Assembly: GCA_949292775.1 (NCBI GenBank) | Contig: CASFBL010000019.1 | Coordinates: 1-47,485, forward strand | Length of the DNA: 47,485 bases | Reading direction: 5' to 3' | Source: an uncultured Eubacteriales bacterium | GTDB lineage: Bacteria > Bacillota > Clostridia > Oscillospirales > Acutalibacteraceae | Shown here: positions 3,311 to 47,485 of the stretch, in pieces | Layout: each line of letters starts with the position of its first letter | Numbering within the stretch: the stretch's first letter is position 1 | Notes under the pieces: generated by a model | Seen by the model: only the letters and a program-made list of their open reading frames with translations | Told to the model about the DNA's origin: nothing | Databases searched by the model: none | Made by a program: the position numbers and the translations under genes

Positions 3311-3345
3311 GCCCTGTTAGCTTTCAATGCTAACAGGGCTTTTTG
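3311..3345 (+). terminator. Strong intrinsic terminator
   Basis: Perfect 11-bp stem GCCCTGTTAGC / GCTAACAGGGC (3311-3321 and 3329-3339) with a 7-base loop and a T-run. It ends the efp transcript. Confidence 0.95.
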
Positions 3346-3381
3346 TTTACAAAAAGTTTAAAACTTTTTATTGTCACGCCC

Positions 3382-3410
3382 TTGCAAAATGGAAAAAACA
3401 GGTGTATAGT
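3382..3410 (+). promoter_or_regulatory. Promoter of htpG
   Basis: TTGCAA at 3382-3387, a 17-bp spacer, TATAGT at 3405-3410. The CIRCE element begins five bases downstream, over the expected transcription start. Confidence 0.85.
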
Positions 3411-3414
3411 ATTT

Positions 3415-3441
3415 TTAGCACTCAAAGAGATAGAGTGCTAA
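3415..3441 (+). promoter_or_regulatory. CIRCE operator (HrcA binding site)
   Basis: A perfect CIRCE element: TTAGCACTC-N9-GAGTGCTAA, matching the canonical sequence in all 18 arm bases. Its position over the transcription start implies repression of htpG by HrcA in unstressed cells and release on heat shock. HrcA itself is not in the window. Confidence 0.96.
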
Positions 3442-33641: not shown

Positions 33642-33667
33642 GAAACTAAAGAAAGGGGGAGTCCTTT

Positions 33668-34747
33668 GTGCGACTTCTGCAAAAAAGATGGTTGGCGCTT
33701 ACGCTGATGCTTCTTTTGACGGCCGGGATATTCGGCTATGTTGTGAGTGGTGTGAACGCACCCTCGGCCGCCAACACCTACCGCACATCTTTGGCGCATT
33801 CCGGCGAGGTGCTTTGGCGCGGGATTTCCGGCATTGTGCAGCGCAGCACAAATTATACCGGCTACACACCCCTTGCCGCCATTCCCGAAACTGAAAAAGG
33901 ATATGTGCCGCAAGGTTATTGTTATTGCGAAGCGGCAGACGCCTATATTATTTCCTACTACCATGACGATGAGGCCTCCATTTTGGCTATGGTGGACGCC
34001 CAAACCGGCAAACGGCTGAAAACCGTTTTGCTGCATCAAAATGACGGTACCGCGTTTACCGGGCATGCCGGCGGCGTGGCAGATGATGAAACTTATGTGT
34101 ATATCTGCGACGGAAATCAAATTTACCGCATTTCGCTTGACCGCCTGCAAGCCGCTTCTGACGGCGCGCCGGTCATGCTGACCGAGTCTGTTGTAACCGA
34201 TGTGAAGTGTTCTTACATTGCAACAGACGGCGAATATTTGTATGCCGGTGAATTTTACACCTATTATTCCGACGGGCGTTATGACACCGACCCCACGCAC
34301 CATATGCAGGTTTCCACGACCGAATTGAGCTTTGCGCGCTGCAACGCCTATACGCTTTCGGAAATCAACGATGCGTTTGCCGAAATTCCCGAAACAACGG
34401 TCACGCCGACCGCGGCATTTACCGTGCCTAACCGTGTGCAAGGCTTTGCTCGGCTTTCAGACGGGACCTTTGCCTTGAGTGTTTCCTATGGCCGCAACAC
34501 AGATTCGTGGCTTTATACATACGCCGATGTGACAAAAGAAGAACCGGCCTATTGGCTCAATTATGCCGACCGCGATGTGCCGGTCTATTCGCTTTGCAGA
34601 ACCGATATTATTTCCCGGCTCCGCCTGCCGCCGCTGTTAGAGGGCATTGATACCAAAGACGGCAAGGTGACCGGCATTTTCGAGTCCGGCGCGCAGAAAT
34701 ATAAAAACGGCAAATTTATTTTGAACAGCATTTGTGAATTTGCGTAA
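33668..34747 (+). CDS. Exported propeller-like protein of unknown function
   Basis: A 359-residue protein with an N-terminal signal or anchor segment (residues 7-26) and a soluble extracellular part. Repeated short strands of the type ADAYIISYYHDDEASILAMVD, DDETYVYICDGNQIYRISLD and GEYLYAGEFY, spaced about 40-50 residues, suggest a beta-propeller; this is a fold guess, not a recognised family. No catalytic motif is seen. The start is GTG at 33668, chosen because GGGGGAG ends seven bases before it. The gene is alone between promoter and terminator. Its ribosome-binding region is complementary over 14 bases to the small RNA candidate at 46269-46405. Confidence 0.75.
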   Translation: MRLLQKRWLALTLMLLLTAGIFGYVVSGVNAPSAANTYRTSLAHSGEVLWRGISGIVQRSTNYTGYTPLAAIPETEKGYVPQGYCYCEAADAYIISYYHDDEASILAMVDAQTGKRLKTVLLHQNDGTAFTGHAGGVADDETYVYICDGNQIYRISLDRLQAASDGAPVMLTESVVTDVKCSYIATDGEYLYAGEFYTYYSDGRYDTDPTHHMQVSTTELSFARCNAYTLSEINDAFAEIPETTVTPTAAFTVPNRVQGFARLSDGTFALSVSYGRNTDSWLYTYADVTKEEPAYWLNYADRDVPVYSLCRTDIISRLRLPPLLEGIDTKDGKVTGIFESGAQKYKNGKFILNSICEFA

Positions 34748-45025: not shown

Positions 45026-46177
45026 ATGGATATTCAGGATTTGCGCGCTCAAATCGACCAAATCGATGAAAAATTGGTACCGCTGTTTTTACAGCGCATG
45101 GGCGTGTCTTTGAAAGTTGCAGAATATAAAGCGCAAAAGAATCTTCCGGTGCTGGACAGAACGCGGGAACGCGCACTTCTGAAAAAAGTTGCAAACACAA
45201 CCGACGACTCCGATTTACAGCTTTACACAAGACTTTTGTATTCGTCTATTTTGGGGCTTTCCCGGTCTTATCAGCACAAACAGCTGGACAGCAAAGAAAC
45301 GCCTTTGCAGGAAAAACTGCGCGCCGCAATAAAAGCTTCCGACAAAAAGGATTTGCCGCAGGAGGCCGTCGTTGCCTGTCAGGGGGTGGAGGGCGCGTAT
45401 TCTTCGCTTGCCTGTGCGCGACTTTTTAAGCGACCGGATATTTTGTTTTTCCAAAATTGGGAGGGCGTGTTTTCTGCGGTGCAGCAGGGGCTTTGCCAAT
45501 ACGGCATTTTGCCGATTGAAAACAGCACCGCCGGTTCTGTAAACCAAGTTTATGATTTAATGAACCGTCACAATTTTTATATCGTTCGCAGCATTCGTCT
45601 GCGTGTGGAACACACTCTCCTTGCCAAAAAAGGCGTGAAGCTTTCGGAAGTGCGCGAAATCTTTTCTCACGAACAGGCGATTCAGCAGTGCAGTGCATTT
45701 TTAGAAGGATTGAAAGGCGTAAAAGTGACCGTTTGCGAAAACACCGCTGCCGCAGCCAAGCGCGTGGCGGAAAGTGACCGGCGCGACATCGCCGCCATTT
45801 CCTCAAAAGACTGCATGGCGCTTTATGGGCTGGAAGCGCTCGGCGAGAGCATTCAAAACAACCCCAATAACTATACGCGGTTTATTTGTATCGGCAAGGA
45901 GCCGGAGATTTTTCCCGGCGCGAACAAAACAAGCTTAATGCTTACCCTCCAGCATAAGCCCGGCGCGCTGTATGATGTGCTGTCACGGTTTTATGCGCTC
46001 GACATCAACCTGTTAAAGCTTGAAAGCCGTCCGAAGCCGGGCAGCGATTTTGAATTTGTGTTTTATTTTGATATTGAGGCGTCGGTCTATTCTGACGATT
46101 TCTTCCGCATGCTTGCAGAGCTGCAGGAATCCTGCGAGCAGTTCAGCTATCTCGGCAGTTATATTGAAATTGTGTAA
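45026..46177 (+). CDS. pheA: Bifunctional chorismate mutase / prephenate dehydratase
   Basis: A 383-residue enzyme for phenylalanine synthesis. Residues 1-90 are an AroQ-type chorismate mutase (start DIQDLRAQIDQIDEKLVPLFLQRM). Residues about 112-290 form the dehydratase with GVEGAYSSLACARLF, IENSTAGSVNQVYDLM and NNYTRFICIG, which holds the catalytic Thr of the TRF motif. Residues 300-380 are an ACT domain with KPGALYDVL (GAL) and LESRP, the phenylalanine-binding motifs, so feedback inhibition by Phe is expected. It closes the operon that starts at the Phe/Tyr leader. GGAGGG precedes the start. No terminator lies directly after it; the next is in the small RNA candidate. Confidence 0.96.
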   Translation: MDIQDLRAQIDQIDEKLVPLFLQRMGVSLKVAEYKAQKNLPVLDRTRERALLKKVANTTDDSDLQLYTRLLYSSILGLSRSYQHKQLDSKETPLQEKLRAAIKASDKKDLPQEAVVACQGVEGAYSSLACARLFKRPDILFFQNWEGVFSAVQQGLCQYGILPIENSTAGSVNQVYDLMNRHNFYIVRSIRLRVEHTLLAKKGVKLSEVREIFSHEQAIQQCSAFLEGLKGVKVTVCENTAAAAKRVAESDRRDIAAISSKDCMALYGLEALGESIQNNPNNYTRFICIGKEPEIFPGANKTSLMLTLQHKPGALYDVLSRFYALDINLLKLESRPKPGSDFEFVFYFDIEASVYSDDFFRMLAELQESCEQFSYLGSYIEIV

Positions 46178-46234
46178 AAGATAAATTCAAAGCGAAGTTA
46201 ATTTTTTGTTTACAAAATATTCAACAAATGGCTA

Positions 46235-46262
46235 TTGTATCGAAATATTTAGCCGATATACT
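46235..46262 (+). promoter_or_regulatory. Promoter of the small RNA candidate
   Basis: TTGTAT at 46235-46240, 16 bases, TATACT at 46257-46262; transcription would start near 46269, leaving no room for a ribosome site and gene before the hairpins. Confidence 0.6.
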
Positions 46263-46268
46263 AAAGAC

Positions 46269-46405
46269 ATCAAATCAAGAGAGAAGCTCTTGAGGCGATA
46301 CAAACAGATTACCCCCTCTGTTTGGAAGAACTTTTTCATTTCTCCCCCTTTCTTTTAACAAAAGAGAAAAAAGCCGTCTGACTCCCCCTCAGGCGGTCTT
46401 TTTCT
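46269..46405 (+). ncRNA. Candidate trans-acting small RNA with three CCCCC tracts
   Basis: About 137 bases between a promoter and a terminator. Four hairpins are visible. SL1: TCAAGAG/CTCTTGA (46275-46293). SL2: CAAACAGA/TCTGTTTG with loop TTACCCCC (46301-46324). SL3: a weak A/T stem TCTTTT/AAAAGA (46351-46365). SL4, the terminator: CCGTCTGA/TCAGGCGG with loop CTCCCCC (46374-46396) and T-run 46399-46405. A third C-tract, CTCCCCCTTTC (46342-46352), lies between SL2 and SL3, unpaired or only partly paired. Exposed C-rich motifs are the seed of Gram-positive sRNAs such as RsaE, which block Shine-Dalgarno sites. No conserved open frame is present. It could also arise from the 3' end of the pheA transcript. 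Confidence 0.6.
46374..46405 (+). terminator. Terminator of the small RNA / aro operon
   Basis: 8-bp stem CCGTCTGA / TCAGGCGG with a 7-base C-rich loop and a T-run. It is the first terminator after pheA. Confidence 0.85.
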
Positions 46406-46601
46406 TTCTGTTTAAAACTTTAACAAGAAAAGCTCCGGGCACTACGCAAGCGCTCGGAGCTTTTTTCACTTTTAAATTTCAAATTTAACTATTCAATCCT
46501 CAAAAACCATTGATTTTTCAAGGCTTCACGCCTGTTTTTCATTCAAGCCTTATCTATTTGCCCTTGTTTTTGCCCTTACGAGGCGAAACAAGGGCAACTT
46601 T
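46406..46601. other. Non-coding stretch with stacked hairpins at the element scar
   Basis: No gene seen. It holds a second rightward terminator, AAAAGCTCCG/CGGAGCTTTT (46428-46437 and 46455-46464). An interrupted inverted repeat AAGGCTT-N18-AAGCCTT lies at 46520-46526/46545-46551. A 12-bp stem TTGCCCTTGTTT/AAACAAGGGCAA (46558-46569 and 46586-46597) sits at the 3' end of the integrase fragment. The last two could be parts of an attachment region of the lost element; no core repeat could be proven because only one end is visible. Confidence 0.5.
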
Positions 46602-47033
46602 TTATTCCCCGCCGACCACCTTATCCAGCAGCCTTGCAGAAGTACGCTTCGCTTCCCTTGTAGAGTGAGCGTAGATGTTCATTGTGGTACTGACATCGGA
46701 GTGTCCGAGAAGTTCCTGCACATCTTTCGGCTTTGTGCCGCCGGACAGCAGATTGCTTGTGTAGGTGTGGCGGAGAGTGTGGAAATGGAAATCCTCAAGC
46801 CCTTTCACTTTCTTCTTTGCCGCCCTGCACATAATCTCTACCGTACTCGGCGCTTCATACGCCCCGTCTGCTCTCAGGCAGACAACGGTTATCTGCAAAT
46901 CCTTTGCGTTGATAAGTGTTTCCTGCTTGCATTTATGACAGTAGAGGGGAAAATTCTTTAATTCGGTATCTTCTCGTAATTGAAGGCGTGTTTTACTTTT
47001 ACAGATAGGGCATAATAGCCATTCTATTCTCAT
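46602..47033 (-). pseudogene. Cys-rich KTR domain fused to integrase C-terminus (element scar)
   Basis: A 143-codon open frame made of two unrelated parts. Residues 1-50 are a cysteine-rich KTR protein (WLLCPICKSKTRLQLRED, then CHKCKQETLIN; C8, C11, C32, C35), a small protein common in integrative conjugative elements of Firmicutes. Residues 51-143 are the C-terminal catalytic half of a tyrosine recombinase: FHTLRHTYTSNLL with the HxxRH motif, LLGHSDVSTTMNIYAH with the nucleophile Tyr, and SARLLDKV. The integrase N-terminus and first catalytic Arg are missing. An in-frame deletion of the element's interior would give this. I start it at 47033; a TTG at 47069 is possible. It overlaps the upstream gene's end by about 35 bases. 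Confidence 0.75.
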
Positions 47034-47485
47034 TTTGTGATTTTTTATCAAAGGCGTTGGTAATTGCAACGATAGCAGGAAACATCACTCCCGCAACAAC
47101 CCAAATTATCCAACTCTGCCCCCAATTATTTGATGATAGACTATATCCCACATATACTGCTGTTGCTATTACCCAATATGCAGTATATACAGCAACTGCA
47201 ATAGACGGTTTTTCCTTATTTTCTTTAGAATATTCTCCCTCTTGCAGAAGCTTTTCATAGCTCGCCCATATAATACCCGTCTTAATGAAGCAAATCACAC
47301 CTATACCTGCAATGATAAATGAAAAGGAAAGCATAATTATTAGAAATAGGTCGTTATCAGCGTCAATTATTGCTCCAACAAAAAGCGGAATTAAGGCAGT
47401 AATACACAAACAAGTTCCTGCAATATTATTCTTTGTGTGCAAATCTTTGTATTTTGCTTTGCGTTCTTTAACCATTCCACTCACG
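46999..47485 (-). CDS. Membrane protein, partial (C-terminal part of an XRE-type regulator?)
   Basis: The leftward open frame runs off the right edge, so the N-terminus is not seen. The visible 161 residues hold four hydrophobic segments in two pairs (about residues 22-66 and 95-140), joined by a charged loop (EKLLQEGEYSKENKEK). The last segment, NNWGQSWIIWVVAGVMFPAIVAI, is of a type found at the C-terminus of many clostridial XRE regulators that have membrane tails. An HTH domain would then lie beyond the edge. Base composition here is much more A/T-rich than in the rest of the window, in line with acquired DNA. Confidence 0.6.
   Translation of the reverse strand, partial: VSGMVKERKAKYKDLHTKNNIAGTCLCITALIPLFVGAIIDADNDLFLIIMLSFSFIIAGIGVICFIKTGIIWASYEKLLQEGEYSKENKEKPSIAVAVYTAYWVIATAVYVGYSLSSNNWGQSWIIWVVAGVMFPAIVAITNAFDKKSQNENRMAIMPYL

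Follow-up and report, generated by a model that had tools for sequence, protein, structure and literature searches.

The window, the 47,485-nucleotide stretch of DNA analysed here, lies on a contig of a 2.16 Mb host genome and very probably contains a small RNA (sRNA) gene at positions 46269–46405, judging from sequence comparison and predicted folding. Our best reading, to which we assign a probability of about 0.58 as a whole, is that the gene encodes a trans-acting, stress-induced RNA that would block translation starts with a bias towards exported proteins, the gene at 33668 being one of its best predicted targets.

Identification of the small RNA gene

The original prediction had described a promoter, hairpins, a terminator and three CCCCC tracts in this region. 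Direct reading found all of them in place, with the tracts at 46312–46316, 46344–46348 and 46384–46388. The start of the gene was inferred from the −10 element and its end from the terminator, giving the following features:

46209..46225, + strand: imperfect direct repeat TTTACA-N5-TTCAAC, candidate activator box (from aligned homolog promoters and similar boxes at htpG, hsp20 and hrcA)
46235..46240, + strand: −35-like element TTGTAT (from sequence; aligned in homologs)
46257..46262, + strand: −10 element TATACT (from sequence; TATACT in most aligned homologs)
46269..46405, + strand: small RNA gene
46269..46299, + strand: predicted stem-loop 1 (SL1), with the 5' end AUCAAAUCAAGAGAG, whose sequence is conserved
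46301..46324, + strand: predicted stem-loop 2 (SL2), with the first CCCCC tract in its loop
46330..46356, + strand: anti-start segment ACUUUUUCAUUUCUCCCCCUUUCUUUU, mostly unpaired in the predicted fold
46366..46404, + strand: terminator hairpin, with the third CCCCC tract in its loop

The −35-like and −10 elements are separated by a spacer of 16 bases. The stretch 46260–46405 has a folding energy of −39.4 kcal/mol (z = −3.56), and none of 200 shuffled sequences folded as well. The complement of ACUUUUUCAUUUCUCCCCCUUUCUUUU reads as a Shine-Dalgarno (SD) sequence, a spacer and AUG AAA AAG. The part that is antisense to AUG AAA AAG, CUUUUUCAU, sits 5' of the C-tract, and complementarity to start regions extends into it. 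This part, the most conserved of the sRNA, had been missed in the original prediction. Its mean unpaired probability is predicted to be 0.76 in the window's own copy, and ranges in the predicted folds of 18 copies from 0.37 to 0.98, with L038 the lowest.

The sRNA stretch is preceded by an open reading frame (ORF) ending at 46177, named prephenate dehydratase (pheA) by eye. Since no gene was seen on the + strand for it to lead into, the stretch does not look like a leader. Just 3' of the sRNA and near the contig end, an integrase-like C-terminal ORF occupies 46602–47069 on the − strand; this neighbor varies among relatives. A search of the window against Rfam returned no family at gathering score.

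Conservation among relatives

A DNA search of 39 genomes of the genus gave strong matches to the sRNA. A model built from an alignment of 18 copies (R1) matched 26 of the 39 genomes at E ≤ 0.01, 20 of them at E ≤ 1e-6. By our own count, relatives were accepted in 27 of the 39: the 20 at E ≤ 1e-6, two by eye (G098 and G212), one through a common promoter (G231) and four via the promoter (G202, G203, G210 and G225). The last four perhaps represent two lineages, G202 and G203 being nearly identical and G210 and G225 having flanking sequence in common. G223, G224 and G236 have tandem copies; in G201 and G235 there is a second copy that has diverged. The second copies L033 and L034 are diverged tandem neighbors of the sRNA that differ in the 5' half and have the same anti-start segment.

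The promoter, 5' end and terminator are conserved across these relatives, which supports the sRNA assignment. In the terminator, every one of the 12 predicted pairs is changed on both sides in at least one of the 18 sequences. SL2 is missing together with its C loop in four of the 18 copies. Covariation in SL1 and SL2 showed no excess over shuffles, in a hand-written structure that was badly placed, with 65.4% of its cells paired.

The three CCCCC tracts had been put forward as the conserved motif, and this had to be revised. The SL2 loop has CCCCC in 14 of the 18 aligned copies, and the open segment has CUCCCCC in 15 and AUCCCUUUUCUUCCCC in the other three, while the invariant part is CUUUUUCAUU, present in 18 of 18. 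It is followed by a UCCC-type stretch, and together the two are antisense to the SD, spacer, AUG and AAA AAG. The 18 copies were listed with a pattern that itself contains CUUUUUCAUU, and the set found by promoter is the fairer test of conservation. The four genomes found by promoter pattern rather than by seed, and G231 as well, all have UUUCAUUUUCAUUCUCC just before the terminator; in the promoter-found relatives the long C-run is gone, and CAU and UCUCC are kept. Where bases are inserted between CAU and the C-tract (four in L036, one in L035), the SD-to-AUG spacing stays sensible.

It is also conceivable, and in our view very improbable, that the function resides in the reverse strand, in the form of a ribosome-binding site, an ATG and either a short MKK... 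peptide or a leader. Although GGGGGAGAAATGAAAAAG on the − strand makes a good start site, the reverse-strand ORFs that begin at the same ATG run to 7, 9, 10, 16, 18, 20, 22, 23 or 35 codons with unrelated endings, the 22-codon version being similar within one clade. On the strand opposite the sRNA, L030:1727-1845 (+) matches the ylbH leader model at 40.3 bits (gathering 50), above the RsaE score there, but ylbH has no match in the window at gathering score and none at E ≤ 10 in 46180–46480. Moreover, the promoter, the box and their spacing are conserved on the + strand.

A degenerate seed pattern was also run against named sequence records and matched 18 stretches, two in Candidatus Fimenecus and the others in bins from uncultured organisms, most of them with titles naming Clostridia or relatives. 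Seventeen of the 18 are the same RNA (11 stretches were read, and the other seven were taken as loci already read); the remaining one, L121, resembles a gene start read on the opposite strand. In the own genome, a search with the full seed complement at up to three mismatches matched only the sRNA itself. Family-wide, 300 genomes were searched with R1, and 53 of them had matches at E ≤ 0.01. Of the matches outside the genus, 17 were read; many look like unrelated terminators or reverse-strand gene starts (L059, L060), and for this reason none was counted. By eye only, L066 and L077, outside the genus, show the same design as the sRNA, with TTAACA-N5-TTTAC(A/T) before the −10. These two, with L064, L070, L068 and L076, all from other genera, are short terminator-ended candidates with U-rich CAU and C-rich segments.

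Predicted targets

The sRNA is likely to block translation starts by pairing, as suggested by the complementarity of its open segment to start regions. The original prediction had singled out one such region, and direct reading confirmed that 46342–46355 is the exact complement of 33648–33661 and 46380–46389 that of 33654–33663. The corresponding site, identified from the exact complement and from its rank as a target, is:

33648..33670, + strand: candidate target site, comprising the leader, the SD and the GTG start codon of gene 33668–34747, which encodes an exported protein

Pairing with a 30-base segment was computed for 599 start regions, representing 29% of the own genome and defined with a simple gene caller of our own. 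The 33668 gene ranked second of the 599. The best energy was −24.7; 33 of 100 dinucleotide-shuffled seeds did as well, so one match this strong could by itself be due to chance. Ten of the 599 start regions lay below −22, compared to 2.7 ± 1.7 for the shuffled seeds, none of which (0/100) reached this number.

The five best predicted targets are all signal- or membrane-like, a class that was assigned by a simple hydrophobicity rule and includes 89 of the 599 genes overall. The bias towards exported proteins in the own genome corresponds to an AUC of 0.655 versus 0.606 ± 0.021 for shuffled seeds, one of 100 shuffles reaching it; shuffled C-rich seeds also favor exported genes. In G236, 15 sites fell below −20 versus 5.8 for shuffled seeds (0/60 shuffles), while the count below −22 was not raised (reached by 33/60) and the exported bias was not above the shuffles (AUC 0.619 versus 0.599; 12/60). 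In G234, scanned with its own seed variant, the exported AUC was raised (0/60), while the site counts were not (below −20, 15/60; below −22, 46/60). The exported bias was replicated in one of the two further genomes.

Among 94 G000/G236 orthologue pairs, six reached −17 or lower in both genomes, compared to 1.1 ± 1.2 for shuffled seeds (0/60); the rank correlation of the orthologue energies was not above that of shuffled seeds (11/60). The 33668 gene and L180:6468, which encodes a Gate-domain membrane protein, tied for first place among these pairs with a summed energy of −45.3. No Pfam family matches the 33668 protein at E ≤ 0.001, and relatives of this protein are present in 13 of the 39 genomes, the own genome included. 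For five relatives the match begins inside the protein, and their start regions were therefore left out of the comparison. The 14-base match is exact in the own genome only; it is reduced to 12 of 14 in G200, the closest relative, and six orthologues that are more distant have a different best pairing, with energies of −16.1 to −22.0 in 250-base windows. Being among the best predicted, the 33668 gene appears to be a good candidate target.

Whether the sRNA prefers exported proteins is evenly balanced in our judgment. A rather unlikely alternative is that it acts as a general C-rich blocker of translation starts with no special target class, in which the complement of AUG AAA AAG merely strengthens pairing with Lys-rich starts. 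The AUCs that shuffled seeds themselves attain in the own genome and in G236, and the lack of an excess over shuffles in G236, are in line with this, but the exported AUC exceeds the shuffles in two of three genomes and the invariance of CUUUUUCAUU reaches beyond the anti-SD part.

A promoter box resembling those of heat-shock genes

The aligned homologs have TTTACA (TTCACA in one) about 48 nt before the −10, and most have a TTNAA-like partner 11 bases past it. When a matrix made from 13 sRNA boxes only was applied to 599 own genes, htpG, hsp20 and hrcA ranked 1, 2 and 3. Pfam identified their products as HSP90, HSP20 and HrcA; this heat-shock identity was recognized after the ranking, in the 29% sample. 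DnaK, which is in the hrcA operon, ranked 35th and a ClpC-like gene 329th. In G236 and G234, hrcA ranked 10 of 323 and 6 of 336, respectively; one site that outscores hrcA, L166:4855, has no gene behind it. The elements found upstream of htpG in the window are:

3345..3361, + strand: box upstream of htpG, a candidate co-regulated heat-shock gene (from similarity to the sRNA box)
3405-3410: htpG −10 element TATAGT (from sequence)
3415-3441: perfect CIRCE of htpG, TTAGCACTC-N9-GAGTGCTAA (from sequence)

The htpG box is present in five genomes, the pattern finding it in G200, G204, G215 and G232 besides the own genome. For hrcA, 30 loci of the genus were fetched, of which two were too short and one lacked a CIRCE. 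All 27 readable loci have TTNAYA-N5-TTNAYA 5' of hrcA, versus four of 580 own genes, and two of these four are hsp20 and hrcA. From the first hexamer to the −10 the distance is 49 nt in 21 loci and 58–60 nt in five; one locus has no assigned −10. In the own genome, the two hexamers are found 48 and 37 nt before the −10 of the sRNA, 47 and 36 nt before that of hsp20, and 59 and 48 nt before those of htpG and hrcA. At the second hexamer, the sRNA (TTCAAC) and htpG (TTTAAA) deviate from the strict TTNAYA repeat seen at hrcA.

With one mismatch allowed, the box pattern gave 91 matches in the 39 genomes versus 21 for a backward control. Part of the 91 was dropped, namely a dispersed repeat of G234 (12 places read) and the 5S-like L227, L244 and L256. 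In the own genome with two mismatches there was no excess, with 17 matches versus 24 in the control. The G234 repeat (L260, L262-L270) begins ATTTACAAAAAGTT(C/T/A)AA, holds a hairpin and mimics the promoter box. The 5S-rRNA-like genes, recognized by eye, have GTTAACAAAATGTTAAA upstream of them, about as far away as a promoter would be. A further part of the 91 matches falls at genes that, also by eye, look MarR-like; in five genomes (L208, L210, L211, L214, L253) these have a box about 51–60 nt before the −10.

From these similarities we lean towards a putative activator shared by the sRNA and the heat-shock genes. Two points weaken this link: the second hexamer of the sRNA misses the strict hrcA repeat, and the pattern count in the own genome was not above the control. 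These same two points, together with the post hoc recognition of the heat-shock genes and the presence of the pattern at other genes, would fit a box that is a generic AT-rich activator or promoter element whose heat-shock link is coincidental. We consider this unlikely in view of the repeat in all readable hrcA promoters versus its rarity among own genes, the top three matrix ranks of htpG, hsp20 and hrcA, and the recurrence of the htpG site in five genomes.

Repeats with an 11-base period suit OmpR-type activators, and TTWACA repeats are associated with PhoP. Control of the box by PhoP or phosphate was not favored: the best matrix score at 24 pstS-type loci of the genus was 14.7 in one and at most 12.0 in the others, on scores only.

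Proposed mechanism

In the preferred reading, folding or envelope stress would lead an activator at the TTTACA-N5-TTCAAC box to switch on the sRNA, and the same activator would induce htpG, hsp20 and the hrcA operon along with it. The open segment would then pair with the SD, and often with the start codon, of mRNAs that have G-rich starts beginning with Met-Lys-Lys, a preference by which exported proteins would be favored as targets. Such pairing would block ribosome loading, so that the secretory load would fall while the chaperones rise.

The same logic, in which an RNA induced by folding or envelope stress reduces the synthesis of exported proteins, is found in the sigma-E sRNAs MicA and RybB of enteric bacteria. 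The likeness is in logic only, and no sequence relation is claimed; to our knowledge, neither an outer membrane nor sigma-E is to be expected in the present host. More speculatively, and with the odds in our estimate against it, the genus and perhaps related genera may use an sRNA coupled to heat shock, its seed being a degenerate antisense copy of the start of signal-peptide genes. It would recognize a protein class via its n-region codons rather than single mRNAs, under a putative activator common to hrcA, htpG and hsp20, and would be the Gram-positive equivalent of the brake exerted by sigma-E sRNAs. If this were true, gut Clostridia would have a link between chaperone induction and a brake that acts post-transcriptionally on exported proteins, and an sRNA would address a protein class by antisense to common start codons. 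A direct-repeat activator site common to the sRNA and heat-shock operons is a testable prediction.

Comparison with known small RNAs

The original prediction had likened this RNA to RsaE and FsrA. The likeness stands as far as open C-rich regions and weak alignments go, but neither model reached its gathering score: RsaE/RoxS (RF01820) gave 28.6 bits (gathering 79) and FsrA (RF02273) 17.9 bits (gathering 80). According to the portions of the sources available, RoxS is a C-rich sRNA that has open C-rich regions and pairs with SDs (PMC8216469, PMC5419742) and is conserved among Bacilli and Staphylococci (PMC8216469). A C-rich loop and a C-rich open stretch, as in RsaE/RoxS, are found in the own copy of the sRNA, but the loop tract is absent from four of the 18 copies. 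The promoter box differs, being unlike anything in those portions of the descriptions of these RNAs (PMC8216469, PMC5419742).

That the sRNA is a distant RsaE/RoxS homolog, redox-controlled, C-rich and acting on the SDs of central-metabolism genes, seems improbable to us. The full-length alignment has ACAAACA..UACCCC..UGUUUG and CCCCUUU in common with RsaE, at E ≤ 0.1 RsaE matches the own genome at the sRNA locus only, and an Rnf-Nqr subunit and an FMN-binding protein rank 5th and 11th among the predicted targets. The score rises to 36.5 bits in the homolog L030, still below gathering, and L030 is the only one of six homologous loci scanned to match at E ≤ 0.05. Furthermore, other genomes of the phylum give similar scores (28.6 and 28.3 bits), which were taken for chance, and the loop tract is among the parts lost in the four copies without SL2.

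We class the sRNA as a new family that would work like LhrC, its nearest known counterpart in mode of action, with the addition of the start- and lysine-codon complement and the heat-shock-like promoter box. None of the papers listed in searches of the open-licence literature describes this RNA. LhrC was not among the 27 matches listed at E ≤ 10 for Rfam models against the sRNA region, from a library in which the presence of an LhrC model is unconfirmed. According to the accessible parts of two papers, LhrC1-5 of Listeria monocytogenes are present in several copies, pair with the SDs of surface-protein mRNAs and are induced by envelope stress, and promoter positions −55 to −59 and −72 to −75 are required for the response to the LisRK two-component system (PMC4132741, PMC5880928). 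LhrC has three CU-rich single-stranded regions, a loop, a stretch and a terminator loop, as far as the available text of the second paper describes them (PMC5880928).

Measured against these partial descriptions, the sRNA has the same three regions by its sequence and predicted fold, multiple copies in some genomes of the genus, and a box at a like promoter position. Pairing with SDs would be a further likeness, which for the sRNA takes the form of a predicted bias to exported-protein starts. It differs from LhrC in its host, an uncultured Clostridia-class gut bacterium, in the reach of its best-conserved segment, whose complementarity includes the start codon and AAA AAG, and in having a C-tract in the loop that is dispensable. 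A further difference is that its box resembles that of hrcA, htpG and hsp20.
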